Source: Celeribacter neptunius
Lineage (GTDB): Bacteria; Pseudomonadota; Alphaproteobacteria; Rhodobacterales; Rhodobacteraceae
Length of the DNA: 64,000 bases
NCBI RefSeq assembly: GCF_900113955.1
Contig: NZ_FORH01000005.1
Span: forward strand, 248,001-312,000
Reading direction: 5' to 3'
In this document: in pieces, positions 13,469 to 52,534 of the stretch
How the letters are laid out: the number at the start of each line of letters is the position of its first letter
Position numbering within the stretch: position 1 is the stretch's first letter
Made by a program: the position numbers and the translations under genes
Notes under the pieces: generated by a model
What the model was told of the DNA's origin: nothing
Databases searched by the model: none
What the model saw: the letters and a program-made list of their open reading frames with translations, nothing else

Positions 13469-13488
13469 AAATGGTGCCCGGGGGCGGA
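13469..13488. other. Left attachment site of element 1 (partial tRNA-Phe 3' end)
   Basis: The 20-nt sequence beginning AAATGGTGCCCGG and ending GGCGGA is identical to the 3' end of the tRNA-Phe gene plus three flanking bases (52457-52476). It is the chromosome-side footprint expected after integration at that tRNA. Beyond 13488 the sequence departs from the tRNA. Confidence 0.85.
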
Positions 13489-13522
13489 GTGCATAAAGTT
13501 TCTTAAAACAAAGACTTAGTGA

Positions 13523-13596
13523 AAAGTGGGACACTTGATCTTCCCATAGTTTCATTAGGTTTTTCGGGAAAATTGTCCCACCATTTTGGGTGGGAT
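13523..13596. repeat. Left-end GTCCCAC repeats, candidate integrase arm sites
   Basis: Three copies of the motif GTGGGA or TCCCAC lie here: AAAGTGGGACACTT (13523-13536), TTGTCCCACC (13573-13582) and GGTGGGAT (13589-13596). The last two also form a 7-bp hairpin. The first two are exact reverse complements of sequences near the other end of the element (24989-25002 and 25020-25029). Their position 35-110 nt inside the att core fits arm-type binding sites of a lambda-type integrase. Confidence 0.5.
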
Positions 13597-13645
13597 TCCG
13601 ACTGCACAGGCTGCCAGCACATCCTTTCAAAACCTCAAACGAAAA

Positions 13646-13676
13646 GACCCGCAGGAACGGCAATTCCTAGCGGGTC
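13646..13676. other. Perfect-arm hairpin before the primase gene
   Basis: GACCCGC and GCGGGTC form a 7-bp stem, with an inner AGGAA/TTCCT pairing around CGGCAA. On the minus strand TTTTCGTTT follows the stem, so it could terminate leftward transcription. On the plus strand it lies in the leader of the primase gene. The rest of 13357-13691 contains only the att site and the GTCCCAC repeats; I see no gene in it. Confidence 0.5.
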
Positions 13677-13694
13677 CAAAATAGGCGTGATGTG

Positions 13695-15926
13695 ATGAAA
13701 GATACCCTCGATATCCCAAAGAATCAACCCTCTACAGGCAACCTCACAGGCCTGCTTTCCGACCTGCCCAGCAATCTTATGGCAGCCGCAGACCTCGCTA
13801 GGCGCGGCTTCTCTGTCTTTCCTGTCCGCAATTGGGGAGATGGTGAAGCATGGAAACCGGTTAAGGGATTTCCAGAGAAGGCTACACGCGATCTCGACCA
13901 GATCCGTGCTTGGTGGGCGATGTGGCCTGATGCGCGCGTGGGCCTTCTGACCGGTGAAGCTAACGGGCTAACCGTGATCGACGTAGATATGAAGAACGGA
14001 AAGGATGGTGTCGCCTCTCTTGCTGAGCTGGGCTTCGCTGATCTGGACAAGATGACGCCGGTTCGCAGCCGATCGCCTTCCGGTGGCTGGCACCTCTTCT
14101 TTAAATACCAGCCTGGACTCAAAGGCACAGTGGGACGGCTGGGCGAAGGTTTGGACATTCGAAACAACAGACAGTTTGTCATCGCACCTGGCTCATACAA
14201 GGATTCAACTCAATATGCCGAGATGGGCGCCCCTTTGGGTGAGACTGAGCTGCCACCCTTTCCTGAATCACTGATCCCTGAGCCGGAACCTGAGCGGCCC
14301 ACAATTGAACTTCTCACAGTAGCTTCCCCAGATCAGTGCCAATGGGCTGCGGACAGGCTCACAATGCTGGCCGATGACCTTGCCGCCCTTTCGGAAGGGT
14401 CGCGCCAGTCGACTCTAAATGAGACCGTACTCTGGGCGGGCGGGGTTGGTGCGCATGGTATGCTTGATCGCGAAGAGACGCGCGAGCTTCTACTGGAAGC
14501 CTGTTTTGCGAACGGGCTGCCCGAGAGTGAATTTGAGGCAACCTTTGACCGCGCCTGGAATGACGGAATGCGCAAGCCTGTTTCCGATTTCCCGCTGCTC
14601 TACACCGCAGACGACTTCGACGATTTGCAAGTGCAAAGCCCAGCCTTCGAGGCAGGCGAAAAACTAAATCTTGCAACTTTCGCCAATGGCAATATGAAGC
14701 CCTCCCTTTCGGCAACCATGTTCTTTCTGATCAAGGTGAACGCTGAGAGGAATCTGGGCCTAAAGTTCAATGAATTTTTGCGGAATGAGGAATGGCTGCG
14801 CGGTGAAGTCACAGACGCCGATCAAACTGAAATCAAAATCTGGATCGAACAGGCTGGGATTACGTACGCTTCCTGCCCATTGCACAGCGTTTCAAAATCA
14901 GACGCCAATGACGCAATTGCCGCTTTATCGAGAAAGCACCCTCATCACCCTGTTCGCGACTGGCTTTCCTCATTGCATCATGACGGGCAGCGACGGGCTG
15001 AAACGCTCTTCATTGATTACCTAGGTTGCCCGGATACGCCTTATTTCAGAGACACCGCCCGACTGCTACTTGTCGCGGCTGTAGCAAGGATTTTTGAACC
15101 GGGCCACAAGTTCGATTTCGCCCCGATCATTGAAGGTGCCCAAGGTATTCGGAAATCGACCTTTGTGAAGACGCTGTGTCCAAGGGCGGATTGGTACGGC
15201 GATCCACAGATTGACTGGTCCGAAGACAAGCACGTCCTAGAGCAAACACAAGGTATCTGGCTTTTGGAGCTAGGAGAGCTCACCGGGCTGCGCAAAGCCG
15301 AGGTGAACGTGATTAAAGCTGCCATTTCACGGACACACGATAAAGCACGAGAGGCGTATGGGCGCAAAAGTCAACGGGTGGCGCGACAGTTCGTCATGAT
15401 CGGCACCACGAATGATCGTGATTACTTGGTCGACGATGAGAACCGCAGATTTTGGCCGATACCGGCTCAGGTCGAACAGACGGACACCGAGAAACTTGCT
15501 AGAGAGATACCTTCAATCTGGGCCGAAGCTGTAGCCATTTATAAGCAGATGCGGACGCAGCAACCCGAAGGGCCGTTACCCCTCCATTTAACCGGTGATG
15601 CAGAGAGCCACGCCCGCAGGCTTCAAAAATCTCGGCGCAAAGAGAGCGAGAGCGATGTATTGGCCGGGCAAATCGAACACTGGCTCAACACGCCACTTGG
15701 CGACGGGTTTGACGACTTGGACGCAGCGCCGATGCAACCGACATACAGGGACGAAGTGTGCGGGCTGGCTGTATGGCGCGAAATGCTTGGCAATAAAGGT
15801 GTGCCCCCTCAGTCCGAACTCACCAAGATCGGCAGAGCCATTGCTTCGCTTGGATGGATCAAGGAAGGGCGCAAACGTCATCCTGAATACGGGCAACAGA
15901 TAATACACAGGAGGCCCACGTCATGA
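13695..15926 (+). CDS. Prim-Pol primase fused to a VapE-type helicase-like ATPase (satellite replication protein)
   Basis: The N-terminal part (about residues 30-200) is a bifunctional primase-polymerase domain, with the metal pair in VIDVD near 95-99 and SGGWHLFF near 130. The C-terminal half belongs to the virulence-associated E (VapE/DUF5906) family, with a P-loop-like EGAQGIRKST near residue 480 and a later IGTTNDRDYLVDDENRRFWP block typical of the family. Such proteins start replication of excised satellites and plasmids. The start is the ATG at 13695 or the GTG just before it. An array of 9-bp repeats lies directly after the stop codon. Confidence 0.88.
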   Translation: MKDTLDIPKNQPSTGNLTGLLSDLPSNLMAAADLARRGFSVFPVRNWGDGEAWKPVKGFPEKATRDLDQIRAWWAMWPDARVGLLTGEANGLTVIDVDMKNGKDGVASLAELGFADLDKMTPVRSRSPSGGWHLFFKYQPGLKGTVGRLGEGLDIRNNRQFVIAPGSYKDSTQYAEMGAPLGETELPPFPESLIPEPEPERPTIELLTVASPDQCQWAADRLTMLADDLAALSEGSRQSTLNETVLWAGGVGAHGMLDREETRELLLEACFANGLPESEFEATFDRAWNDGMRKPVSDFPLLYTADDFDDLQVQSPAFEAGEKLNLATFANGNMKPSLSATMFFLIKVNAERNLGLKFNEFLRNEEWLRGEVTDADQTEIKIWIEQAGITYASCPLHSVSKSDANDAIAALSRKHPHHPVRDWLSSLHHDGQRRAETLFIDYLGCPDTPYFRDTARLLLVAAVARIFEPGHKFDFAPIIEGAQGIRKSTFVKTLCPRADWYGDPQIDWSEDKHVLEQTQGIWLLELGELTGLRKAEVNVIKAAISRTHDKAREAYGRKSQRVARQFVMIGTTNDRDYLVDDENRRFWPIPAQVEQTDTEKLAREIPSIWAEAVAIYKQMRTQQPEGPLPLHLTGDAESHARRLQKSRRKESESDVLAGQIEHWLNTPLGDGFDDLDAAPMQPTYRDEVCGLAVWREMLGNKGVPPQSELTKIGRAIASLGWIKEGRKRHPEYGQQIIHRRPTS

Positions 15927-15928
15927 TC

Positions 15929-16148
15929 TGTGCACCCTGTGCAGCCTTGTGCACCCTAGAAATTCTCAGAGGGTGCACACGAAAACTGTTAAATACCAAC
16001 GCTTTGATAGCAATGTGCACCCTGTGCACCCTGTGCACCCTAAAAACCCTAAGAGTTTCGGGAGAGAACAGAGACTGTGCTACTGGGTGTCTCGGGCTCG
16101 CCTATGAAAAGTATGGAAAAGTGGGTGCACAGGGTGCAAGGGTGCACA
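15929..16148. repeat. TGTGCACCC repeat array, candidate replication origin
   Basis: The 9-mer TGTGCACCC occurs exactly at 15929, 15948, 16014, 16023 and 16032, with a one-base variant at 15938. The last three exact copies are head to tail. The reverse complement GGGTGCACA occurs at 15971, 16123 and 16140, with a variant at 16132. All lie between the primase stop and the terminase gene, flanking a more AT-rich middle. A reading frame (15923-16306) spans the array but looks like a by-product of the repeats. Nothing else is visible in this 364-nt gap. Confidence 0.7.
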
Positions 16149-16290
16149 GCCGCGCTCAGATCAAGCGGGCAAAAGGCTGGGCATATATACTCGGTCACAC
16201 ATTGGGTCCCTTTAGGGGCCGGTGCATCGCGGAGACTCGGAACCGCGACTCTTTAGCCGATTCAAAATTTTCAAATGATGGGAGTCAGAA

Positions 16291-16809
16291 ATGCACTCTG
16301 ATTTAACTGCACTCCTCTCTTCCGACGAGCCCGCAACCTCGCAGCAAGGATTGCCGGTTGAAATGCGCGAAGGTGAGTTGGCAACCCTGTTAGGGGTAAC
16401 GGGTAGCCGAGTGCGCACGCTGGCGCAGGATGGCGCAATCGTTAGATCGCGGCGCGGCTGGTATGACGTTGCCGCGAGCGTGACAGCCTACTGCGCCCGG
16501 CTGCGAGAGGCCGCCGAACGGGCTGGCCGCCCGTCTTTGCAATCGGATGAAGTGAAGGCCGCTGCGGCGAGGCTCAAAGCCGCGCAAGCTGACCTTGCAG
16601 AACTAAAAGCCTCGCAGGCGCGCGGAGAGGTGGTCCCGATCGCCGATGTGGTGCGAGAATGGGCCAGCTTGCTCCGAGACCTGCGCAACGCTCTCCTGGC
16701 CGTTCCCAGCCGCTGCGGCGCCAGCCTGCCTCATCTCACCGCGACAGACATTTCCACAATGGAACAGGAAATCAGAATCGCCTTGGAGGGCTTGGCCGAT
16801 GCAGATTGA
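16291..16809 (+). CDS. Phage terminase small subunit (Nu1-like DNA packaging protein)
   Basis: The 172-residue protein begins with a winged-helix-like DNA-binding region (EGELATLLGVTGSRVRTLAQDG, residues about 26-48). A long charged helix follows (about 85-115), then a C-terminal part probably used to contact the large subunit. This layout is that of lambda Nu1-type small terminases, which recognise packaging sites. GGGAG lies 6 nt before the ATG. Its last 11 nt overlap the large-subunit gene, indicating translational coupling. In satellites this protein directs packaging towards the satellite genome. Confidence 0.8.
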   Translation: MHSDLTALLSSDEPATSQQGLPVEMREGELATLLGVTGSRVRTLAQDGAIVRSRRGWYDVAASVTAYCARLREAAERAGRPSLQSDEVKAAAARLKAAQADLAELKASQARGEVVPIADVVREWASLLRDLRNALLAVPSRCGASLPHLTATDISTMEQEIRIALEGLADAD

Positions 16810-18556
16810 ACAGGTTCGCCGCGAAGCCTTGAAAGCTCTACTACCGTCACCCAACGTGCCGCTTGCGGACTGGATCGAGTCCAACGTCTATATTCCCGCG
16901 AGTGCATCGGCCTTGCCGGGGAAAATGAAGCTGTGGCCGTTCCAGCGCGGCTGGTGCGAAGCCCTCGAAGATCCCGAGATTGAGCGCATCACCATCGCCA
17001 AGGGCGCTCGCATTGGGTACACGCAATGGCTTTCCGCCTCGCTGGCTCATTTCGTGGCGAACGCGCCCGCTCCGATCATTGCCCTACAACCCACCAGCGA
17101 CGATGCGCGGGATTTCAGCGTGGAACTTGAATCTATGTTTGAAGCCTCGCCCGAACTGCGGGGCCTTCTGACCGATGATGATGCGAATGGGCGCTCCACG
17201 ATGCTCGCGAGACGGTTCCCCGGTGGCTCGCTCAAATTTCTAGCGGCCAAGTCGCCTCGCAATCTGCGGCGCCACACAACGCGCTTCCTCGCGATGGATG
17301 AGGTCGATGGCTATGAGATCACGCAAGAGGGCGATCCCATCAAGTTAGCGGAGATGAGGACACTTACCTTTCGTGACCGAAAAATCTTGGCAGGCTCAAC
17401 ACCTGTCTTCGATTATGGCCCGATTACCCGGCTCTACAGTGAATCCGATCAACGGGTGTTTGAATGCAAATGCCCGAGTTGCGGGGAGTATTCCGAGATC
17501 AAATGGGCCGATATTCGCTGGCGCGAAGGCGATCCAGAGTCCGCGCATTGGGTGTGCCCTAATAACGGCTGCGTGATCGAAGAACGACACAAGCCCGAAA
17601 TGGTGGCAAATGGACGTTGGCGCGCAACCAAGCCCGAGGTAAAAGGTCACGCTGGTTTCAAGATCAATTGCCTTGTGAGCCCGCACCACAACGCCCGCTG
17701 GAGCAATCTGGCCGCTGAGTTTCTGACAGCGAAAAAGAGCCCCGAGACGCTGCAAGTGTTCACCAACACCATATTGGGCGAGCCTTGGAAAACAGAGGGT
17801 GAGGATTTCGACGAGCACGAACTCTTCGGGCGTCGGGAATCGTTCAGTATAGAAAACCTGCCGCCCGAACTTTTGTTTTTGACTCTTGGCGTAGATTGTC
17901 AGGACGATAGACTCGAACTGGTTCTGATGGGCCACACGGAAACAGATTGGCTTATCCTCGATCACAGAGTGTTTTGGGGGCCTATTGATGGAGAAGCCGT
18001 CTGGCAGGACCTCGATTCCCTGTTGCGTGAAAGCTGGCCGCATCCCAAGGGCGGAACAATTCGAGTTGATGCTTGCGCAATCGACAGTGGGGACGGTGGC
18101 CATTTGGAAACTGTAATGGGGTTCGCAAAACCCCGGTTTTCGCGGCGTGTCGTGCCGATTAAAGGTGTTCCGGGGTTCTCTCGCGCGTTGCTGCAAAAGT
18201 CCGGCACGAGAGGCCAGCACTTGTGGCTTTGTGGCGTAGATGCTGCAAAATCGCAGTTGTTTACCCGCGTAGCCCGGAAAGAGGGAATCCGCTTTTCCGA
18301 GGACCTTTCTCCTGTATTTTTCGAGCAATTCGCTTCGGAAAAGCGGGTTCTCAGATACGCGCACGGGAAGCCGCAACCACGCTTCGAAAGGATCAAAGGC
18401 AAACGCGCGGAGTCGCTGGACGCTTCAGTTTACGCGTTGGCAGTTCGATCACTGATCAACCAAAGGCTTGATCTGCGGGCGGAAGAACTTGCCAGCGCAG
18501 CCGCACCGAAGAAACAGGAACGGGTTATCCGGAGTCGCTGGCTCTCCGGCGCTTAA
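16799..18556 (+). CDS. Phage terminase large subunit, GpA family
   Basis: The 585-residue protein matches lambda GpA. It has an ATPase motif KGARIGYT at 68-75 (a variant Walker A as in GpA), a Walker B FLAMDEVDGY near 163-172, and a cysteine cluster (CKCPSCGEY then CPNNGC) about 100 residues further on. A nuclease domain begins at LGVDCQDDRLE near 360. It cuts and pumps DNA into the prohead. The start at 16799 is internal to a longer open frame and is chosen because it overlaps the small-subunit stop and gives the family N terminus. Confidence 0.95.
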   Translation: MQIEQVRREALKALLPSPNVPLADWIESNVYIPASASALPGKMKLWPFQRGWCEALEDPEIERITIAKGARIGYTQWLSASLAHFVANAPAPIIALQPTSDDARDFSVELESMFEASPELRGLLTDDDANGRSTMLARRFPGGSLKFLAAKSPRNLRRHTTRFLAMDEVDGYEITQEGDPIKLAEMRTLTFRDRKILAGSTPVFDYGPITRLYSESDQRVFECKCPSCGEYSEIKWADIRWREGDPESAHWVCPNNGCVIEERHKPEMVANGRWRATKPEVKGHAGFKINCLVSPHHNARWSNLAAEFLTAKKSPETLQVFTNTILGEPWKTEGEDFDEHELFGRRESFSIENLPPELLFLTLGVDCQDDRLELVLMGHTETDWLILDHRVFWGPIDGEAVWQDLDSLLRESWPHPKGGTIRVDACAIDSGDGGHLETVMGFAKPRFSRRVVPIKGVPGFSRALLQKSGTRGQHLWLCGVDAAKSQLFTRVARKEGIRFSEDLSPVFFEQFASEKRVLRYAHGKPQPRFERIKGKRAESLDASVYALAVRSLINQRLDLRAEELASAAAPKKQERVIRSRWLSGA

Positions 18557-18867
18557 ACGCAATCTCTGAGAATTCCCTCAGATTGGTATGCGAAGTCGTC
18601 AAAGGTGAGATAATAGCGCTCGCAATCATTTCCAAAGTTAGAACGGCATTTCAGGTATTTCTGTGCTGCATCTTTCATGGTGAAGAGCTTGCCATAGAAA
18701 TATTCAACCGAGACGCATTTGGTGTCATCGCTCAGGCGTGCGAACGCGTCATCATACTTTTCGTACAAGGTGCCGCAAAGCATTTCCAATTCGTTGTTTG
18801 ACGATTTGAAGTCTAGAGTTTCCACCGGTTGCTGTACGATTTCTCGTATTCTCTCGAATTCCTGCAT
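18553..18867 (-). CDS. Hypothetical small protein of element 1
   Basis: I do not recognise this acidic 104-residue protein. It has four cysteines (near residues 31, 50, 74 and 82) and a mostly helical composition. It runs against the surrounding head genes, and its stop codon overlaps the end of the large-terminase gene by four bases. AAGGGG stands before the start; a GTG at 18873 is an alternative start. Small genes in this reverse position in satellites often interfere with helper phages or hosts, but nothing in the sequence proves that here. Confidence 0.55.
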   Translation of the reverse strand: MQEFERIREIVQQPVETLDFKSSNNELEMLCGTLYEKYDDAFARLSDDTKCVSVEYFYGKLFTMKDAAQKYLKCRSNFGNDCERYYLTFDDFAYQSEGILRDCV

Positions 18868-18895
18868 CTTCACAAATCCCCTTCAAAACAATGAA

Positions 18896-19132
18896 TCAAT
18901 CGGTGACAGCATAGGATCGACCGTCCTCCCAGTACAGCCGCGTTAGAGCCGCTGGCGTAATCCCTCTGGCACTGCACGCTTCCACATACTTCGAATAGGG
19001 AATGAAGGCTTGCCGCATTTTGCCATGTCGCCAAGGCTTGCGACGAATGGGTCTGCCTAATTCAGACTGACTGCACCCCAGGTGCTCTGCCGCAGCTTTC
19101 AAGAGAACGTATGTCTTAGGTTCGTCTGTCAT
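18896..19132 (-). CDS. Small putative DNA-binding protein of element 1
   Basis: The 78-residue basic protein contains VLLKAAAEHLGCSQSELGRPI, a helix-turn-helix-like pattern similar to excisionase and small phage regulators, followed by a basic stretch (RRKPWRHGK). AAAGGAGGG gives a strong ribosome site 5 nt before the ATG. It is divergent from the head-gene block and faces a region with two dyad operators (19351-19394), so it is a candidate regulator of that block. That link is inferred. Confidence 0.6.
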   Translation of the reverse strand: MTDEPKTYVLLKAAAEHLGCSQSELGRPIRRKPWRHGKMRQAFIPYSKYVEACSARGITPAALTRLYWEDGRSYAVTD

Positions 19133-19350
19133 CGGAACCCTCCTTTAACAAAATAGCCGACCACCCCACTCTCAGAAAGGATGGCCGGCCGGGCGTGCGA
19201 GGAGGCCGAAATCCTCATACGCCAACTCTGTTTCGGGTGTGTACGACTGGCCGAACGTGCCGCCCAGTCGCAATTTTCCACCATCATCGTCGGCTCAGAG
19301 AAGGATGCAGATAGCCGATTTGAGCTTTCGATAGAACCTTACTAACACTC

Positions 19351-19394
19351 TTGCATAACTCTGTGCAAGATATTTGTTGCACAACTTTGTGCTA
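19351..19394. promoter_or_regulatory. Tandem 18-bp dyad operators in the divergent promoter region
   Basis: Two related palindromes, TTGCATAACTCTGTGCAA (19351-19368) and TTGCACAACTTTGTGCTA (19377-19394), are spaced 26 bp centre to centre. The second is a palindrome in 7 of 8 base pairs. They lie 36-79 nt before the gene at 19430 and 219 nt or more from the divergent gene starting at 19132. The arrangement suits cooperative binding of a dimeric repressor. The rest of 19133-19429 shows no gene. Confidence 0.6.
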
Positions 19395-19429
19395 GTGTGT
19401 TATTCGAGAGAAAATTACAGGAGACAACC

Positions 19430-19984
19430 ATGCGCCTCGCAGAGATCGCCAACAAACTTGCAGCCCATGAGGCAATGGAAGCCGATGCCCTCCACAACGT
19501 CCTTCGGGGGCCAGCGGTTAAGGTTCTTTTTTCTGCACAGCCTGGGCGAGGCCGCACCAGCGCCGCCGAGTATGCCGCAGAAGAACTTGCACGGGCGCGC
19601 TTGCTCTTGGCTGCACGCGACTGCGGCTTGACGGGTCCTGAACTCGCAACATTCAACAATGCTCTCAATGAGCCCCCTAAAGCCGGTATTCTCACACCTC
19701 CGAGCGCGAAAGTTGACGGTGGCACATTTTATGAGAATGGCCTTCGGACGCTGATCCGGGGGACGCGCGCTGGTGAGAACTGGGACGTTCGTGTTCGCTT
19801 CACGCTCACCCAAGACGGGAAACGTCGCATCTCACCTTGGGTGCGGTGGGAAAAGTGGGAGGAGTCCCGCAGAGCCTCCGCAGCTGTGGATCTTCTTTAC
19901 AGCGAAATCCCGCGCGGAATGGTGATCATTCCCGCCTCTGATCTGATCCGCCCGCTTCTCGATCTGATTCCCGAGGAAGATTAA
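19430..19984 (+). CDS. Hypothetical protein preceding the portal gene
   Basis: I do not recognise this 184-residue soluble protein. It has an N-terminal helical part (residues 1-60), and a second part with beta-rich segments such as WDVRVRFTLTQDGKRRISPWVRWEKWEE, ending in an acidic tail. AGGAG stands 6 nt before the ATG at 19430. It is the first gene of the head-structure block and ends 3 nt before the portal gene, so a role in regulation, assembly or packaging of the head is likely but unproven. Confidence 0.65.
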   Translation: MRLAEIANKLAAHEAMEADALHNVLRGPAVKVLFSAQPGRGRTSAAEYAAEELARARLLLAARDCGLTGPELATFNNALNEPPKAGILTPPSAKVDGGTFYENGLRTLIRGTRAGENWDVRVRFTLTQDGKRRISPWVRWEKWEESRRASAAVDLLYSEIPRGMVIIPASDLIRPLLDLIPEED

Positions 19985-19987
19985 CCC

Positions 19988-21328
19988 ATGAAGCTGCCCC
20001 GCCTCTTCCGCCGCTCTGAACAAGCGCCGCAAACGCGCTCATATGACGCTGCAACCTCTTCCCCGCGTCGGTTTCAGGCTGGGCAATCGCGCTTTTCTGC
20101 CTACGGCCCGGAAACCGTAGCGGCTGGCCCCATGATTCGTAGTCGGGCTCGATATTCCGCAGAGAACAATGCCCTTGCAGCCGCAGCCATTGCCGCTTGG
20201 ACAGATTCCGCCGTCGGGCCGGGGCTGATGCCCACAAGCCAGCACCCGGACCCTGCAATTCGTACCGCACTCGATACAGGCTTTCGCAACTGGGCGAAGC
20301 GGGCTGATGCCTCTGGCCGCTCAGATTTCGCGGGCATCCAAGCCGCAGTCGTGCGGGCCGAACGGATCGACGGTGAAGCCTTTGTGATGTGGCAGGGCGG
20401 GAAGCTCTTGCACCTGCCGCCCGAACAACTTGCTGATCTCACAACAGACACCATCGCCGCAGGCGTGGAACTGGGCGACGACAGCCAAGCCATTGCTTTT
20501 CATGTGCACCCAAGCCGCCCCGATGGCATTCAAGCCACCTATGCGCCACCTGTCCGCGTTGCTGCCTCCGAGATGCTGCATATTTTCGAGACCCGAGGAC
20601 CGGGCCAAATCCGGGGCGTGTCGGCTCTTTCGCCTGTGTTGCTCACCCTGTCCGAACTCGATGGGCTGGAAGACGCGCTTTTGACGCAATCGAAGGTGGC
20701 GGCGCTGCTTTCTGTGATCTTGAGCGATCAAAACAACATCACAGCCGAAGACCCTTTCACAGAAGGGCAGTCCCTTGAGCCGGGCGCAATGATCCGCATG
20801 GCCGGGAATTGGAAAGTTGACGCAATCGCGCCCCAGCAAACTCAACAGGCAGAGGCTTTCTTGCAGCACCTATCCAGACGCATTGCCGCCGGGGTTGGTG
20901 TTCCTGTGCATCTCGTCAACGCTAACGTGTCGGACGCAAATTACTCTAGCCTGCGGGCCGCAATGGTGGCCTACAGGCAGCGTATTGAGCGTTACCAGTG
21001 GCAAACGCTTGTGCCGCAATTCCTGAATCCTGTTTGGAACCGTGTTGCGACCCTGACCGCGCTGGATCTCGGGCTTGAACTCGATGACGCGCTTTTTGAG
21101 GTGGAGTGGATCGCGCCAAAACAGCCTTGGGTTGACCCACAAAAGGACAGTTCTGCCACAATCTCGCTCATTGAGAATGGGCTCATGTCGAGAAGGCAGG
21201 CCGTGGCAGAGCTGGGCTATTCGATCGAACAGTTGGACGCCGAGATTGCAGCCGACCGGGAGCGGGAAACCACCCTTGGTTTGGAATTTAGCGTGCCTCT
21301 GAAAGAACAAATGGAATCCAAATCATGA
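19988..21328 (+). CDS. Phage portal protein, lambda GpB-like
   Basis: The 446-residue protein matches lambda-family portals. It has an N-terminal Arg-rich segment, RSRARYSAENNALAAAAIAAW near residues 50-70, GPGQIRGVSALSPVLLTLSELDGLEDALLTQSKVAA in the middle, and a C-terminal acidic and amphipathic part. Portals form the dodecameric ring at one capsid vertex through which the terminase pumps DNA and to which the head-tail connector binds. GAGGAAG precedes the ATG. The stop overlaps the start of the protease-capsid gene (ATGA), so the two are coupled. Confidence 0.93.
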   Translation: MKLPRLFRRSEQAPQTRSYDAATSSPRRFQAGQSRFSAYGPETVAAGPMIRSRARYSAENNALAAAAIAAWTDSAVGPGLMPTSQHPDPAIRTALDTGFRNWAKRADASGRSDFAGIQAAVVRAERIDGEAFVMWQGGKLLHLPPEQLADLTTDTIAAGVELGDDSQAIAFHVHPSRPDGIQATYAPPVRVAASEMLHIFETRGPGQIRGVSALSPVLLTLSELDGLEDALLTQSKVAALLSVILSDQNNITAEDPFTEGQSLEPGAMIRMAGNWKVDAIAPQQTQQAEAFLQHLSRRIAAGVGVPVHLVNANVSDANYSSLRAAMVAYRQRIERYQWQTLVPQFLNPVWNRVATLTALDLGLELDDALFEVEWIAPKQPWVDPQKDSSATISLIENGLMSRRQAVAELGYSIEQLDAEIAADRERETTLGLEFSVPLKEQMESKS

Positions 21329-23109
21329 ACAAACGACTGACGGGAAACCTTGCAAACGCAAGCAAAATTAGCCCAACGCGACCCGATCGGAGTTTGGGTG
21401 AGCGGTTCAATCGCGCCATGCCGCGCGAGGGCGCGTTTGACGAAGCCTCCCGCACGTTCCGCGCAACCATTGCGACCGCTACGCCGGTTCAACGCCGGGA
21501 TGCAAAGGGGCCATTTCTGGAAGTGCTGGACCCGAACGGCCTTGAGATTGAAGCCGGTGCCGATTTCCCGCTCTTGACTGATCACCGCCCCGCCGCGCGC
21601 GAGACTGTCGGGCGTGTGCATGGCTTGGAAGTGGATGGCCACAGGGTTCTTGCCTCGCTGCGCCTCGCCAACGTCGATGACGTGGAGCCCCTTGTGCAAC
21701 GCATTCGCGACGATGTGCTCAAGCACGTTTCCGCAGGCTATGCCGTCCTCGAATGGCGCGAAACCATCGACCCTGAAACCCGCCAACGGACCAAGACGGC
21801 AATCCGCTGGCGTCTGCGCGAAGTCTCTTTGACGCCAATTCCTGCCGATCAAAACGCCACTATTCACAGAAGCATGGAGAATGATATGCCTTTTGACCTC
21901 GAAACCCGCATGGCGTTGGTTGATACGCTGCGCACCGCTTGCGGCCTGCCTGACACTTGGGGCGAAGACCTCACCGAAGAGGCTGTAACGGACACCGAAG
22001 TTCGCGAAGCAGCCCGTGAAGCGATGCTCAAACGCAACGCGCCTCAGATCCGCATTACACGCGATCATACCAACCCCGCCGAAATTCAAACCCGCGCTGC
22101 CGACGCGCTGGCTTTCCGCATGGCTGGCGGCGATCTGCCCGAAGCCTCCCGCGAGTTTGTCGGCATGTCTCTTGTCGATCACGCCAAGGACGCATTGACC
22201 CGATCGGGCGTTTCTATTCGCGGCATGTCTGCGGACGACGTTTTGCAACGGTCTAACGGCAGCTCTGATTTTCCGCTTCTTGTGTCCAATGCGATGGGCA
22301 AAGTGGCGGCTCAGGCTTATCAGGCTGCGGAGTCGCCGCTCAAGGCTCTGGCCCGCAAGCGCACCCTCTCGAACTTCAAAGAGTCGACGGCAATCCGCTT
22401 GGGCGAAATGGGCCGCCTCGAAGAGATGAATGAACACGGCGAGTTTAAACACACCTCGCGAGCCGAAGCGGGCGAGTCTATGGCGCTCAGCACCTTTGGG
22501 CGCGCGATCAATGTTTCCCGCAAGCTGATTATCGACGATGATCTTGGCCTGTTGGGCGATATGACCTCTGCAATGGGGCAGGCTGCGGCGCAGACCGAAG
22601 CGGAAGAACTTGTGGCACTCTTCACAGGCAATCCCGATCTGTCTGACGGCACGCCGGTGTTTGATGCTTCCCGTTCGAACACTGTATCGGTGGCCTTGTC
22701 CGAAACCGCGATTTCTGACGCCCGCAAACACCTACGGACGGTGAAGGGGCTCGATGGCAAAACCATCATCGCAGTGAAGCCCAAGTATCTTGTTGTGGGG
22801 CCGGATCTCGAAACCTCCGCTGAGAAATTGCTGGCTGCGATCTATGCCGCCACTGCCGATGATGTGAACGCCTTCGCGGGCAAGCTGACCCTCGTTGTCG
22901 AACCTCGCATTGAAGGCAACGCTTGGTTTGTTGCGGCCGACCCGGCGTCTGTGCCGTCGATCCAGTACGGCTATCTTGCCAGTGCGCAAGGCGTCCAAAT
23001 TCAACGTGCTGAGGCTTGGGATACGTTGGGATTGAAATACCGGGCCTTCCTTGATTTTGGCTGCGGCTGGCTCGATTGGCGCGGCGTCTATCACAGTGCC
23101 GGTGCATAA
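21325..23109 (+). CDS. Prohead protease-major capsid fusion protein
   Basis: Two head functions are joined in 594 residues. Residues about 45-190 are a U35-type prohead protease, with a His in LLTDHRPAARETVGRV and a Ser in HVSAGYAVLEW as likely catalytic residues. A linker of about 100 charged residues, suitable as a scaffold, follows. From about residue 310 to the end is an HK97-fold major capsid region with FKESTAIRLGEMGRLEEMNEHGEF and YGYLASAQGVQIQRAEAWDTLGLKYR. Natural fusions of this kind are known in phages and gene transfer-like elements. The protease would cut the fusion during maturation. Confidence 0.92.
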   Translation: MNKRLTGNLANASKISPTRPDRSLGERFNRAMPREGAFDEASRTFRATIATATPVQRRDAKGPFLEVLDPNGLEIEAGADFPLLTDHRPAARETVGRVHGLEVDGHRVLASLRLANVDDVEPLVQRIRDDVLKHVSAGYAVLEWRETIDPETRQRTKTAIRWRLREVSLTPIPADQNATIHRSMENDMPFDLETRMALVDTLRTACGLPDTWGEDLTEEAVTDTEVREAAREAMLKRNAPQIRITRDHTNPAEIQTRAADALAFRMAGGDLPEASREFVGMSLVDHAKDALTRSGVSIRGMSADDVLQRSNGSSDFPLLVSNAMGKVAAQAYQAAESPLKALARKRTLSNFKESTAIRLGEMGRLEEMNEHGEFKHTSRAEAGESMALSTFGRAINVSRKLIIDDDLGLLGDMTSAMGQAAAQTEAEELVALFTGNPDLSDGTPVFDASRSNTVSVALSETAISDARKHLRTVKGLDGKTIIAVKPKYLVVGPDLETSAEKLLAAIYAATADDVNAFAGKLTLVVEPRIEGNAWFVAADPASVPSIQYGYLASAQGVQIQRAEAWDTLGLKYRAFLDFGCGWLDWRGVYHSAGA

Positions 23110-23111
23110 CG

Positions 23112-23327
23112 ATGGCAACGCTCGCTCAACTTCAGACATGGCGTGACGACCTACAAGACGCTCGTTTTTCAGGTGTGAGAACCGTGCGCGACTCCAATGG
23201 CGAGGAAGTCACCTACAAATCCGATTCCGAGATGCGCGCCGCCCTGGCCTCGATCGACTCGGAAATCCGCAGGCTCAGCAAGCCCGCAAGTTCGACAATT
23301 CACTTCCAAACTTCGAAAGGGCTTTGA
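23112..23327 (+). CDS. Head-completion (gpW-like) head-tail joining protein
   Basis: The 71-residue protein has the gpW pattern: a first helix (LAQLQTWRDDLQDARFSG), a beta hairpin (RTVRDSNGEEVTYK) and a second helix (DSEMRAALASIDSEIRRLS). In lambda, gpW closes the portal after DNA packaging and forms the platform for tail attachment. In a tail-less satellite this protein would make the capsid fit tails supplied by a helper. It follows the capsid gene by 2 nt. Confidence 0.8.
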   Translation: MATLAQLQTWRDDLQDARFSGVRTVRDSNGEEVTYKSDSEMRAALASIDSEIRRLSKPASSTIHFQTSKGL

Positions 23328-23329
23328 AA

Positions 23330-23659
23330 ATGGCTACCAATTTTATCCAACCCGGTGACACGCTCACCATTCCTGCCCCGTTTGATGTGCTTTCCGGCGG
23401 CATCGTGATCGCTGGCAATATCGTGGGCATTGCGCAAGGCGATGCTTTGGCCGGCGCTGACCTCGACGTGAAAACCTCGGGCGTCTGGACGCTCTCTAAG
23501 GTGGGCGCTGATGACATTGAGCTTGGCGCACCGCTCTACTGGGACGACAGCGCGGAACTGGTGACGATCACGGCAACCGACAACACCCGACTCGGGACCG
23601 CGGCCGAAGCCGCAGGCGCGTCGGTGGGCTCTGTGGCTGTGAAGCTGATTCAGCTCTGA
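23330..23659 (+). CDS. DUF2190 family capsid cement protein
   Basis: The 109-residue beta-rich protein matches the DUF2190 family: ATNFIQPGDTLTIPAP at the start, then VLSGGIVIAGNIVGIAQGDALAGADLDVKTSGVW, and ALKLIQL-like VAVKLIQL at the end. Members are recombination-associated or cement (decoration) proteins that stabilise phage capsids. The ATG at 23330 overlaps nothing and follows GAAAGGG. Confidence 0.85.
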   Translation: MATNFIQPGDTLTIPAPFDVLSGGIVIAGNIVGIAQGDALAGADLDVKTSGVWTLSKVGADDIELGAPLYWDDSAELVTITATDNTRLGTAAEAAGASVGSVAVKLIQL

Positions 23660-23669
23660 GATTGATGTG

Positions 23670-23918
23670 ATGCCCGCAGCCTCTCCCCATATGCGCACTG
23701 TGCTACCGCCGCCCACGCGGCGTGGCCTGTCGCGCGTGGAGGCTGCGGAATATATCGGCGTAGGCGCATCGAAATTTGACGCGATGGTCACGGACGGAAG
23801 GATGCCTAAGCCTAAGAAAATAGACGGGCGAAGGGTCTGGGATGTGCGGGCTTTGGACAGCTTTTTTGATGCCTTGCCCGGTGGTGACGACTCAGACCAC
23901 AATCCGTGGGATGAATAG
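23670..23918 (+). CDS. AlpA/excisionase-like helix-turn-helix protein
   Basis: The 82-residue protein carries a MerR/AlpA-type DNA-binding region, SRVEAAEYIGVGASKFDAMVTDGRMPKPKKIDGRRVWDVRALDSFF. It lies directly before the integrase gene, where excisionase or AlpA-type activators of excision usually lie, so it probably controls the direction of recombination. The start is the ATG at 23670 or the GTG before it. Confidence 0.8.
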   Translation: MPAASPHMRTVLPPPTRRGLSRVEAAEYIGVGASKFDAMVTDGRMPKPKKIDGRRVWDVRALDSFFDALPGGDDSDHNPWDE

Positions 23919-23933
23919 ATGCCCGAGGATTCG

Positions 23934-25046
23934 ATGAAATTTCGTTTGAAGTACGTGGTCGAAGACACCGACCGGCACGGCAACGTCCGGCTCTATTACC
24001 GGCACAACGGCAGCAAGATCCGCTTGCGCGGGCCTGTCGGGTCGCCTGAATTTCTGGCCGATTACCGCCGTGCGGCGAACCCACAAAAAGAGAAAAAGAC
24101 CACGACCGCCAAGCCGGGGCGCGTGGTGCCGCGCAGCGTCAAATGGCTCTGCGTTCAATACTACAAAAGCGCCATGTTCACCGAACTGGACCCACGGACA
24201 CAAAAGGTCCGGCGCTCCATTCTGGAACGGTTTTGCCAGCACAAGAACGATGGCGACAAGCCGTTCGCACTTCTGTTGCCGCGTCACATCCGCGTGCGCC
24301 GCGATGAGATGGCAGACCGTCCCGAGGCGGCCAACGGCATGGTGAAAGCCTTGCGCCAGCTTTACCGCTATGCGCTGCGCTATGACCACCACGACGACAA
24401 CCCCGCTGAAAAGGTCGAATACCTGAAGGGCAACCCGGACGGCTTCCATTCTTGGTCTCTGGGCGAAATCGAGAAATATGAAGACGCCCACCCGGTAGGG
24501 ACCCCGGCGCGCCTCGCTTTGGCTTTGGCCCTCTACACGGGACAGCGCCGCGCCGATTTGGTCACGCTTGGAAAGCAACACGTCAGGGATGGGTGGTTGA
24601 CCTTCACGCAGCACAAGGGGCGAAATCACAAGCCCGTGCGCATGGAGATCCCCGTCATCCCCGAATTGCAGAAGATTATCGACGCCACCCCTACGGGCGA
24701 TCTGACGTTCCTTGTCACCGCCTTCAATCGGCCTTTCACGTCCAACGGGTTTGGCAATCGCTTCCGCAAATGGTGCGACGAAGCGGGCCTTCCGAATTGC
24801 TCTGTCCACGGATTGCGAAAGGCGGCAGCCGCGCGTCTGGCCGAACTGGGCTGCACGGAACAGGAGATCATGGCAATCACTGGCCACACCACCAGTAAGG
24901 AAGTCACCAGATACACCCGCGCAGCGAGTCAAAAGACCCGTGCCGAAAGCGCGCTTCGCCGTTTCTCAGGAGAACAAAAGCCGGACAAAAGTGTCCCACT
25001 TTCGATGGCGGTTGTTCCCGGTGGGACAAAATCGCAACCTAAGTAG
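23934..25046 (+). CDS. int: Tyrosine recombinase (integrase) of element 1
   Basis: The 370-residue integrase has an N-terminal arm-binding-like part, a SAM-like core-binding domain, and the catalytic domain with all expected residues: Arg I in TGQRRADL, HGLRK as the H-x-x-R pair, GHTT as the third position, and the Tyr nucleophile in VTRYTRAA. It catalyses insertion of element 1 into the tRNA-Phe 3' end. The start at 23934 has GAGGATTCG in front of it, better than the ATG at 23919. The gene ends 26 nt before the right junction, a normal placement for tRNA-targeting integrases. Confidence 0.93.
   Translation: MKFRLKYVVEDTDRHGNVRLYYRHNGSKIRLRGPVGSPEFLADYRRAANPQKEKKTTTAKPGRVVPRSVKWLCVQYYKSAMFTELDPRTQKVRRSILERFCQHKNDGDKPFALLLPRHIRVRRDEMADRPEAANGMVKALRQLYRYALRYDHHDDNPAEKVEYLKGNPDGFHSWSLGEIEKYEDAHPVGTPARLALALALYTGQRRADLVTLGKQHVRDGWLTFTQHKGRNHKPVRMEIPVIPELQKIIDATPTGDLTFLVTAFNRPFTSNGFGNRFRKWCDEAGLPNCSVHGLRKAAAARLAELGCTEQEIMAITGHTTSKEVTRYTRAASQKTRAESALRRFSGEQKPDKSVPLSMAVVPGGTKSQPK
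24989..25029. repeat. Right-end GTCCCAC repeats, candidate integrase arm sites
   Basis: AAGTGTCCCACTTT (24989-25002) and GGTGGGACAA (25020-25029) are exact reverse complements of 13523-13536 and 13573-13582 at the other end of the element. Both lie inside the 3' end of the integrase gene, 45-85 nt from the junction core. Confidence 0.5.
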
Positions 25047-25072
25047 CTGACAAGTAACAATAAAAAATAAGG

Positions 25073-25122
25073 ATGGTGCCCGGGGGCGGAATCGAACCAC
25101 CGACACGAGGATTTTCAATCCA
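25073..25122. other. Junction between elements 1 and 2: partial tRNA-Phe copy
   Basis: Bases 25074-25122 are identical to 52460-52508, the 3' 49 nt of the tRNA-Phe gene from the anticodon loop to the CCA. The first 17 of these plus the preceding A also match the left att of element 1. The copy serves as the right end of element 1 and the left end of element 2. It lacks the 5' part of the tRNA, so it does not encode a working tRNA. From 25123 to 25342 I see only a leader region with a CCGCTGAGG / CCTCAACGG inverted repeat at 25246-25273. Confidence 0.9.
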
Positions 25123-51071: not shown

Positions 51072-51308
51072 ATGAGCACAACCAGCCTGAATATAAGCGT
51101 GATCGAAAAGCGTATGATGAACGCGACTGAAGCCGCTCATTACTGTGGCATTGCCGTTAAGCACTTTAAGACACTCTGTCCTGTGCGACCCGTATTGATG
51201 CCACCGAAGTACAAACAATACGACAGAATCGACTTAGACAAGTGGTTGGATAATTTGAAAGCTGATGTTGATAACGCTTCACAAAACGCCATCCTGGATC
51301 GACTTTGA
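51072..51308 (+). CDS. Small AlpA-like DNA-binding protein
   Basis: The 78-residue protein has an AlpA/HTH-17-type region: MNATEAAHYCGIAVKHFKTLC, then YKQYDRIDLDKWLDNL. It ends by sharing one base with the integrase start (TGATG), so the two are co-translated. It is the second small regulator in front of this integrase. Confidence 0.72.
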   Translation: MSTTSLNISVIEKRMMNATEAAHYCGIAVKHFKTLCPVRPVLMPPKYKQYDRIDLDKWLDNLKADVDNASQNAILDRL

Positions 51309-52432
51309 TGACTTTAGTTCGCGTGAAAGGCTTCAAAATCTTCTCTGACAGGCATGGACAGATGAGGTGTTATCATCGCCAAACCGGTCGGAAAATTGAC
51401 CTGAAAAAAACTCCGATTGGGTCGGCTGAGTTCTTTTCTGAATGCGCCAGAATTTCGGCAGTGGCAGAAGCCCTCAAACAGCAGGAACCAAAGCCCGGAA
51501 CTCTTGGAGGGCTCATGTCAGTGTATTTTTCCGAAGAGCATTTTTTGGAGCGCTCACGCGCGACGAAACGTGAATATCGAATGTGTGCCGGAATACTAGA
51601 GCCCATCAAAGACACACCAGTTTCATCCATAGATACACCGTTGCTCGCTGCCATCCATGACAAATTGGCGAGGAAGTACAGCTGGGACAAGGCGAACCGT
51701 GTGCGCAACTTCCTCATCCAAGTGTTCAAATTTTGCATCCCAAAGGGATTGATATCGAAGAATTTCGCCGAAGACGTTATCAAAAAACCCCGGCCAAAGG
51801 ACGCTCCAGAGGCATATAGGACATGGGCATTCGCAGAGGTGCAAACCGTCCTCGATGCAGCTTCACCTCAGCTAAGAGCCTCTTTGGCTACGATCTTTTG
51901 CACCGGGCAGGATCCGACCGATGCCTTGGAGTTTCGCAAGGATCAGGTGGGCGATGGCGTGATTTGGAAAGGCCGCAATAAAACCAATGTCGGCGCGGCA
52001 ATCCCGATCAGCAACGTCCTAATATCTGAACTGGCAAGGGTGCCTGCGCATGATGCGCCCACGCTTCTCGCCAGCTCGAAAGGTACGCCATGGACTTACG
52101 ACGGTTTCGCGAGCGCCTGGCAGCGACTTCGTACAAAGCTTGAAAAGGATGGCAAAGTCGCACCTGGCCTAACCCCGAAGGGGCTGCGGCACACAATGGC
52201 GACATGGCTTAGGGAGGCCGGGAGGGACGAACGTGAAATCTCCGATCTGCTGGCTCAGGACTCGAAGGTCATGGGGTTGCATTATTCCAAGAATGCCGCG
52301 CTGGCCCGTAAGAACCGGAAGACGATGCAGGTCTGGGAAGAGGAATACGAACGACGTGCCAAGCAGGCAAAAGTGTCAAACCCACAGAAAAAAGCGTCAA
52401 ACCCTGACAAGAGGAGCTTATCAGATGACTAA
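51308..52432 (+). CDS. int: Tyrosine recombinase (integrase) of element 2, with altered catalytic residues
   Basis: The 374-residue protein has the domain layout of tRNA-targeting integrases and ends 28 nt from tRNA-Phe. The Tyr nucleophile is likely in GLHYSKNAA, and the second box reads KGLRHTMAT. However, where Arg I is expected the protein reads CTGQDPTDALEF, so an Asp replaces it, and LLAQDSKV replaces the usual G-H pair. The integrase of element 1 has both intact. Either this is a divergent family with other active-site residues or the enzyme is weakened. The ATG at 51308 is chosen over the TTG at 51305. Confidence 0.85.
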   Translation: MTLVRVKGFKIFSDRHGQMRCYHRQTGRKIDLKKTPIGSAEFFSECARISAVAEALKQQEPKPGTLGGLMSVYFSEEHFLERSRATKREYRMCAGILEPIKDTPVSSIDTPLLAAIHDKLARKYSWDKANRVRNFLIQVFKFCIPKGLISKNFAEDVIKKPRPKDAPEAYRTWAFAEVQTVLDAASPQLRASLATIFCTGQDPTDALEFRKDQVGDGVIWKGRNKTNVGAAIPISNVLISELARVPAHDAPTLLASSKGTPWTYDGFASAWQRLRTKLEKDGKVAPGLTPKGLRHTMATWLREAGRDEREISDLLAQDSKVMGLHYSKNAALARKNRKTMQVWEEEYERRAKQAKVSNPQKKASNPDKRSLSDD

Positions 52433-52459
52433 AATCCATTTACTTTTCAGTTGTTTAAA

Positions 52460-52534
52460 TGGTGCCCGGGGGCGGAATCGAACCACCGACACGAGGATTT
52501 TCAATCCACTGCTCTACCCCTGAGCTACCCGGGC
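52460..52534 (-). tRNA. tRNA-Phe (GAA)
   Basis: On the minus strand a 75-nt cloverleaf begins GCCCGGG and ends CCCGGGCACCA, with the CCA encoded. The D arm is GCTC/GAGC, the anticodon loop is TTGAAAA with GAA, and the T arm reads GGTGG TTCGATT CCGCC. The anticodon stem has one U-U mismatch. The 3' half is duplicated at 25074 and partly at 13472, so this gene is the attachment site for two elements. Confidence 0.95.

Follow-up and report, generated by a model that had tools for sequence, protein, structure and literature searches.

A putative head-building phage satellite at a tRNA-Phe gene of Celeribacter neptunius and its tail-less relatives in alphaproteobacteria

Within a 64,000-nucleotide stretch of the Celeribacter neptunius genome (contig NZ_FORH01000005.1, positions 248,001 to 312,000), hereafter the window, positions 13471-25090 hold an island of ~11.6 kb that is very probably, judging from its genes, a helper-dependent phage satellite building its own head. 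Between its att sites the island carries replication, packaging and head genes, a gene for a single head-tail adaptor, an integrase gene and an excisionase-like gene; no tail gene was recognised. The first-pass annotation had offered the same interpretation: its tail-less, head-encoding satellite type stands, with the gene order kept in relatives, while the role it gave to the gpW-like protein, that of choosing a compatible tail, is one that we too only infer. If the satellite works as proposed, induction by a helper phage would lead to its excision from tRNA-Phe, and the excised satellite would be replicated by its primase-VapE protein. Its own terminases (TerS and TerL) would then fill the satellite's own heads with about 11.6 kb of DNA, and the gpW-type protein would seat on the satellite portal, with the helper supplying an FII-type closure protein, the tail and lysis.

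The island, its tandem neighbour and its genes

As for the boundaries of the island, the att core ATGGTGCCCGGGGGCGGA is found at 13471-13488, 25073-25090 and 52459-52476, and corresponds to the 3' end of tRNA-Phe plus one base. Since the cores at 13471 and 25073 are the 3' end of the tRNA-Phe gene located at 52460-52534, two islands lie in tandem. The att repeats previously placed around an 11.6-kb element are thus present as 18-nt cores, but with the correction that the right att also serves the second island. The latter (25073-52534, 27 kb), at the same tRNA-Phe, has its own integrase (51305-52432) and excisionase-like genes, together with a relaxase-like gene whose match falls below cut-off. 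G+C content is 56.8% in the satellite, 53.3% in the second island and 62.3% in the rest of the window. The features of the locus are as follows.

13471-13488: left att core, 18 nt, 3' end of tRNA-Phe
13692..15926, + strand: primase-polymerase and VapE-type helicase, 744 aa (PF09250, E 1.8e-29; PF05272, E 3.5e-73)
16291..16809, + strand: small terminase (TerS), 172 aa (phrog_57, E 4.3e-33)
16799..18556, + strand: large terminase (TerL) of the gpA type, 585 aa (PF05876 and PF20454, GpA ATPase and nuclease)
18553..18873, - strand: orphan ORF in the cargo slot, 106 aa, no family match
18896..19132, - strand: orphan ORF in the cargo slot, 78 aa, no PHROG match and only sub-threshold Pfam matches
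19430..19984, + strand: predicted MerR-type regulator, 184 aa, immediately 5' of the portal gene
19988..21328, + strand: portal of the lambda family, 446 aa (PF05136 and TIGR01539, above cut-off)
21325..23109, + strand: prohead protease/major capsid fusion, 594 aa (NF045541, E 2.2e-179, above cut-off; PF25209, PF10124, PF04586)
23112..23327, + strand: gpW-type head-tail joining protein (Ad1), 71 aa (NF047331 above cut-off; phrog_2545; profile match to phage gpW)
23330..23659, + strand: cement/head decoration protein, 109 aa (PF09956, phrog_122; a 111-aa form from 23324 was scanned)
23670..23918, + strand: AlpA/excisionase-like DNA-binding protein, 82 aa (phrog_25900, E 1.8e-13)
23919..25046, + strand: tyrosine integrase, 375 aa (PF00589, phrog_1)
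25073-25090: right att core, with a 50-nt repeat in common with 52459-52508
52460-52534: tRNA-Phe gene

The left flank of the satellite carries katG, which is present in 17 of the 20 genomes of the genus (the source genome counted), and we compared seven katG neighbourhoods of the genus for the satellite site. One congener (G1130) has no satellite here: its katG leads to the att, and directly beyond this comes a stretch that matches the second island's first 206 bases at 92% identity. Because it is missing at the same place in this relative, the satellite is a separate unit. A second congener (G1131) has a 42-nt match to the att, and the five other congener neighbourhoods have none within the sequence stretch examined.

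Profile searches (Pfam, PHROG and NCBIfam) bear out the genes named in the first-pass annotation, all of which are present with open frames in one block. The block is continuous, as had been stated, with the addition of the two minus-strand orphan ORFs in the TerL-portal interval. For TerL we chose the ATG start that overlaps the TerS gene. The PHROG matched by the AlpA/excisionase-like protein is one of transcriptional regulators, its Pfam and NCBIfam matches being below cut-off only. The capsid falls outside PF05065 and matches only PF25209, PF10124 and the protease model, considering matches up to E 1. A PDB sequence search with an alignment of Ad1 returned no phage protein.

The absence of tail, baseplate and lysis genes was likewise upheld, no such family scoring above cut-off among the island proteins scanned (ORFs of at least 50 aa). 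Ad1 has a weak sub-threshold match to the tail-assembly family Gp41_Mu (E 0.17), which was left out of the count. Nor did the scanned island proteins give an HNH match or a match to a closure PHROG, a head closure protein or second connector being likewise missed by the FII HMM throughout the window's capsid clade (see below). The earlier statement that there is no late regulator is doubtful, since the product of 19430-19984, directly upstream of the portal gene, models as a MerR-type protein. This predicted regulator may control the head genes; a Foldseek search with the 184-aa protein gave no match at E<=0.001.

Relatives at tRNA genes and their cargo

A search with the capsid protein found 27 loci, 11 of them in named genomes and the other 16 in viral contigs, eight of which derive from the same genomes as the named loci. 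Cement and gpW-type genes lie 3' of the capsid gene in 27/27 of these first loci. One relative, L013, is identical to the window across 13209 bases and is therefore not an independent witness. With an alignment of 17 capsids (E<=1e-30), matches were found in 96/394 genomes of the family, 16/385 of the class and 37/398 of the phylum, satellites and phages mixed; the same alignment gave 127 viral loci, again a mixture of both, and 80 of these were retained. When the 394 family genomes were sorted by a capsid-score rule, 46 were of satellite type, 63 of phage type, 15 of both and two ambiguous. The satellite is thus one of a large alphaproteobacterial family, whose members most likely spread on tails borrowed from other phages.

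The same gene order is found in relatives at tRNA genes of eight kinds (Ser, Arg, Tyr, Cys, Met, Phe, Glu and Gln). Repeats of tRNA 3' ends flank the capsid gene in 32 rows, 30 of them distinct after removal of the copies L028 and L043; this count covers up to 122 loci, many with short stretches, and one of the 30 (L086) is a capsid match only. A search for intact relatives of 11-13 kb, which the first-pass annotation had proposed, thus found the same order between tRNA repeats, lying 9.9-12.7 kb apart in the 30 distinct loci. An unannotated member of the family (L250, NZ_CP038196.1, about 922100-930900), without an Ad1 match, lies beside tRNA-Glu on pBEN, a conjugative plasmid of 2.2 Mb in Paracoccus versutus.

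In a tree of 147 capsid rows (a quick tree with midpoint root, from which 13 duplicate or near-copy rows and the five partial or remnant rows L146, L156, L076, L175 and L091 had been dropped, and in which L039, L072, L086 and L234 are unlabelled), the window sits within a clade of 69 rows with a support of 99. Nine tail and neck HMMs, one each for FII, tube, chaperone and tape measure and five for other tail proteins, matched 0/69 rows of this clade, in which at least 2 kb of sequence is available to the right of the capsid gene in 54/69 loci and at least 4 kb in 33/69. The FII HMM recovers 26/33 phage loci and none of the LPPA33-type phages, so that divergent tails could escape such a search; in the satellite rows, LPPA33 proteins used as tblastn queries found no tail match. 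Neither of the two observations that the first-pass annotation had named as telling against a satellite, a tail module after the same head genes at the locus or broken frames in the head genes, turned up in the window's capsid clade.

Query matches in the 54 clade loci of at least 9.9 kb were obtained for TerS in 50, TerL in 52, portal in 53 and cement in all 54, and for Ad1 in 44, primase in 40, integrase in 39 and the AlpA-like protein in 24; Ad1 was thus without a match in 10, integrase in 15 and primase in 14. The locus L225 is rearranged. Capsid genes of relatives are under purifying selection, with dN/dS values of 0.041-0.167 in 15 satellite pairs (some with a common member), all of them relatives because the window had no close enough partner.

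In relatives, the TerL-portal interval is a cargo slot (20 rows were removed ahead of the slot count). The slot of one satellite of the window clade (L061:1906-8563) holds Cas1, an 832-aa Cas9 and an 11-repeat CRISPR array, the last also found in L251 and L252. Its spacers had no match in the other loci of the set at up to 6 mismatches, and an exact search of viral contigs with two of the ten spacers returned copies of the same array only. Elsewhere the cargo, in all five cases of defence-type genes, consists of EcoRII and a C5 methylase (L226), a D12 methylase and an HNH_2 protein (L144), a type II restriction enzyme and a methylase (L150), a methylase (L143) or a candidate PDC-S33 (L042).

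Comparison with tailed phages and published satellites

The closest tailed counterparts are lambda-like Rhodobacter phages of the RcMamaDuck type, which share with the satellite a GpA terminase, a lambda-type portal, a protease-capsid fusion, gpW and a gpD-like protein. The satellite capsid, as query, aligns with theirs over 67% of its length at about 30% identity. The gene series in RcMamaDuck and related prophages runs TerL, gpW, portal, capsid, gpD-like, FII and tail, and gpW lies 5' of the portal gene in 31/33 loci of the phage class (a class partly defined by its gpW gene). In the satellites, by contrast, gpW lies 3' of the capsid gene, FII and tail are absent, and excisionase-like and integrase genes usually follow. 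Accordingly, when the satellite was assessed as a lambda-like temperate phage, both the tail module and the FII closure gene were absent. Satellite Ad1 and phage gpW nevertheless belong to the same PHROG and align with an hhalign probability of 96.5 (E 9e-10).

Tailed Rhodobacter phages also have the protease-capsid fusion, which we consequently rejected as a marker of the branch; the absence of HNH, the other trait proposed in the first-pass annotation, keeps its place among the distinguishing features. On sequence criteria, the branch is set apart by gpW after the capsid gene (an order common also to three tail-bearing relatives), by the lack of HNH and of FII, and by a capsid outside PF05065. 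At first the capsid tree separated satellites from phages with a single change, but this split was weakened once L227, L228, L232 and L180-L183 had been relabelled as tailed, three changes then being needed. L180-L183 read as tailed phages by their frames and tape-measure matches. The other three have gpW after the capsid gene and a satellite-like order, yet carry tail-type genes: L227 and L232 have tail or neck genes, each with a tape measure, and L228 has a weak match to a distal tail protein. They lie on the satellite side of the tree, outside the 69-row window clade, and are possible links between phages and satellites. On one contig (L051), phage head genes of the gpW type adjoin a satellite on the opposite strand.

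As for the neck, the overlap of TerS and TerL in the window leaves no room for FII there. Two att-bounded satellites outside the window clade, L157 and L071, carry FII between TerS and TerL (E 1.4e-22 and E 4e-20, respectively), and L071 also has a counterpart of the gene that comes next in the phages, a neck or tail gene (E 4.5e-67). These neck proteins are 35-49% identical to phage proteins, and both FII proteins belong to phrog_7787, as does the RcMamaDuck attachment protein. Since FII is present in these two related satellites and missing here, satellites may differ in where along the neck the helper takes over.

On the features tested, the satellite would work like a cf-PICI, although we do not file it as one. 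According to the available text of the published descriptions (PMC10690885, PMC13230959 and PMC10448857), cf-PICIs, such as EcCIEDL933 and Vibrio TG54, borrow helper tails, encode terminases, a portal, a protease, a capsid and a head-tail adaptor themselves, lack a tail, and carry integrase, AlpA-like and primase genes. The satellite correspondingly has a small and a large terminase, portal, protease and capsid (the last two as one protein), a head-tail adaptor, an integrase, an AlpA-like regulator and a primase-replicase, and no tail genes. It lacks a head closure protein or second connector, an HNH endonuclease and a PF05065 capsid, the last being no formal criterion. Thus, it is set apart from published cf-PICIs, by their available descriptions rather than by sequence comparison, by the absence of HNH and closure genes, the fused protease-capsid and the PF25209/gpT-like capsid. 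HNH belongs to the cf-PICI packaging module in the available text of PMC10690885 and PMC13230959, and is missing from the list seen in PMC10448857. The PF05065 model was used to gather the 900 published cf-PICI capsids described in PMC13230959, and elements with a different capsid may therefore exist among those published; the portion of PMC11389934 available describes three radiations of cf-PICI capsids. When the Sakai thrW region was searched for a reference cf-PICI, other elements were found there.

The Streptomyces satellites MulchRoom and MiniFlayer, as partly described in PMC10690885, are alike in having their own head and packaging genes, the MulchRoom tail apparently coming from the helper. 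Compared by description, they differ in lacking a primase gene and in having direct terminal repeats, virulent helpers and HNH. Our literature search found no paper on this satellite family in the text accessible to it, and the word 'satellite' is absent from the available parts of two prophage surveys (PMC8224337 and PMC6536676).

We tentatively propose, as a possibility somewhat short of even, that these elements form a line of their own among capsid-forming satellites, spread across the class Alphaproteobacteria and based on a head of the lambda/gpT type where the published cf-PICIs have a PF05065 head. In such a line, the neck boundary would be shifted (gpW alone in the window clade, joined by FII in L157 and by FII plus one more neck protein in L071), tails would come from lambda-like phages, and the TerL-portal slot would hold defence cargo, once a whole CRISPR-Cas9 locus. 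If so, head-making satellites would have arisen on more than one phage head type and would be common in a well-sampled environmental bacterial family (46/394 genomes by the score rule), and their graded necks would provide a natural series in which to ask what neck protein determines tail acceptance.

Alternative readings and the helper

The evidence counts strongly against a decayed prophage, immobile after loss of its tail and lysis genes, which we regard as very unlikely. Phages with related heads and full tails do exist, and L146 is a real remnant of this kind, with a truncated satellite portal beside tail tube and tail chaperone pieces (59% and 43% identical to RcMamaDuck, respectively). 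Against such an origin for the island stand the same tail-less order at many independent tRNA sites within a narrow size range, the intact frames in the window and the purifying selection in relatives; the many independent tRNA sites also led us to set aside the deletion of one prophage at the window locus. A self-sufficient tail-less virus, entering cells without a phage tail, would account for the complete head and packaging set and for the lack of tail genes across the clade, but would hardly have kept a gpW-type head-tail joining protein while showing no recognised lysis gene, and is less probable still.

Least probable, in our view, is that satellite heads are fitted with the tails of the host's gene transfer agent (GTA). 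The genome does contain a GTA cluster (L191, G000:C5:515000-532000), and RcMamaDuck-type phages encode a GTA-like TIM-barrel protein. However, the GTA frames in this genome run from the capsid straight to what we take, from the RcGTA gene order, to be tail-tip genes, with no room for the middle genes that would presumably be tail tube and tape measure. The satellite itself is no part of a GTA, being att-bounded with an integrase while the GTA cluster lies elsewhere, on C5.

For a helper-dependent satellite, the likeliest candidate helper would be a lambda-like siphophage with a gpW/FII neck, an identification that we hold with less than even confidence. Across the 394 family genomes, satellites and lambda-type prophages co-occur in 11 genomes versus 3.6 expected (p 2.5e-4), in statistics with post hoc groups, kinship ignored and at most three candidates scored per genome. 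The lambda-type set comprises 31 genomes in one score band, and all 18 with fetched loci have tail genes. With all 63 phage-type genomes, the overlap with satellites is 15 versus 7.4 expected (p 0.0024). The control overlap of satellites with Mu portals is 9 versus 5.8 expected (p 0.16), Mu and lambda types being independent of each other (odds ratio 1.0). Satellites outside the window type account for most of the excess (7/26, p 0.002), window-type satellites alone giving 4/20 versus 1.6 expected (p 0.06).

In the source genome, a search by three portal families (PF04860, PF05136 and PF06074) did not turn up a complete tailed prophage in residence, which leaves the satellite without a ready helper. 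PF04860 matched only the GTA and another small element, PF05136 only the satellite island, and PF06074, which matches 50/394 family genomes, nothing. A missing resident helper is no strong objection, since in the available part of PMC11389934 none of the 17 resident EDL933 prophages detectably mobilised its cf-PICI. The same C. neptunius genome carries another compact element of ~14 kb (L192, G000:C5 about 1031500-1045100), with an integrase, an HK97-type portal, a tail tube, a protease-capsid, HNH, TerS, TerL and a tape measure.
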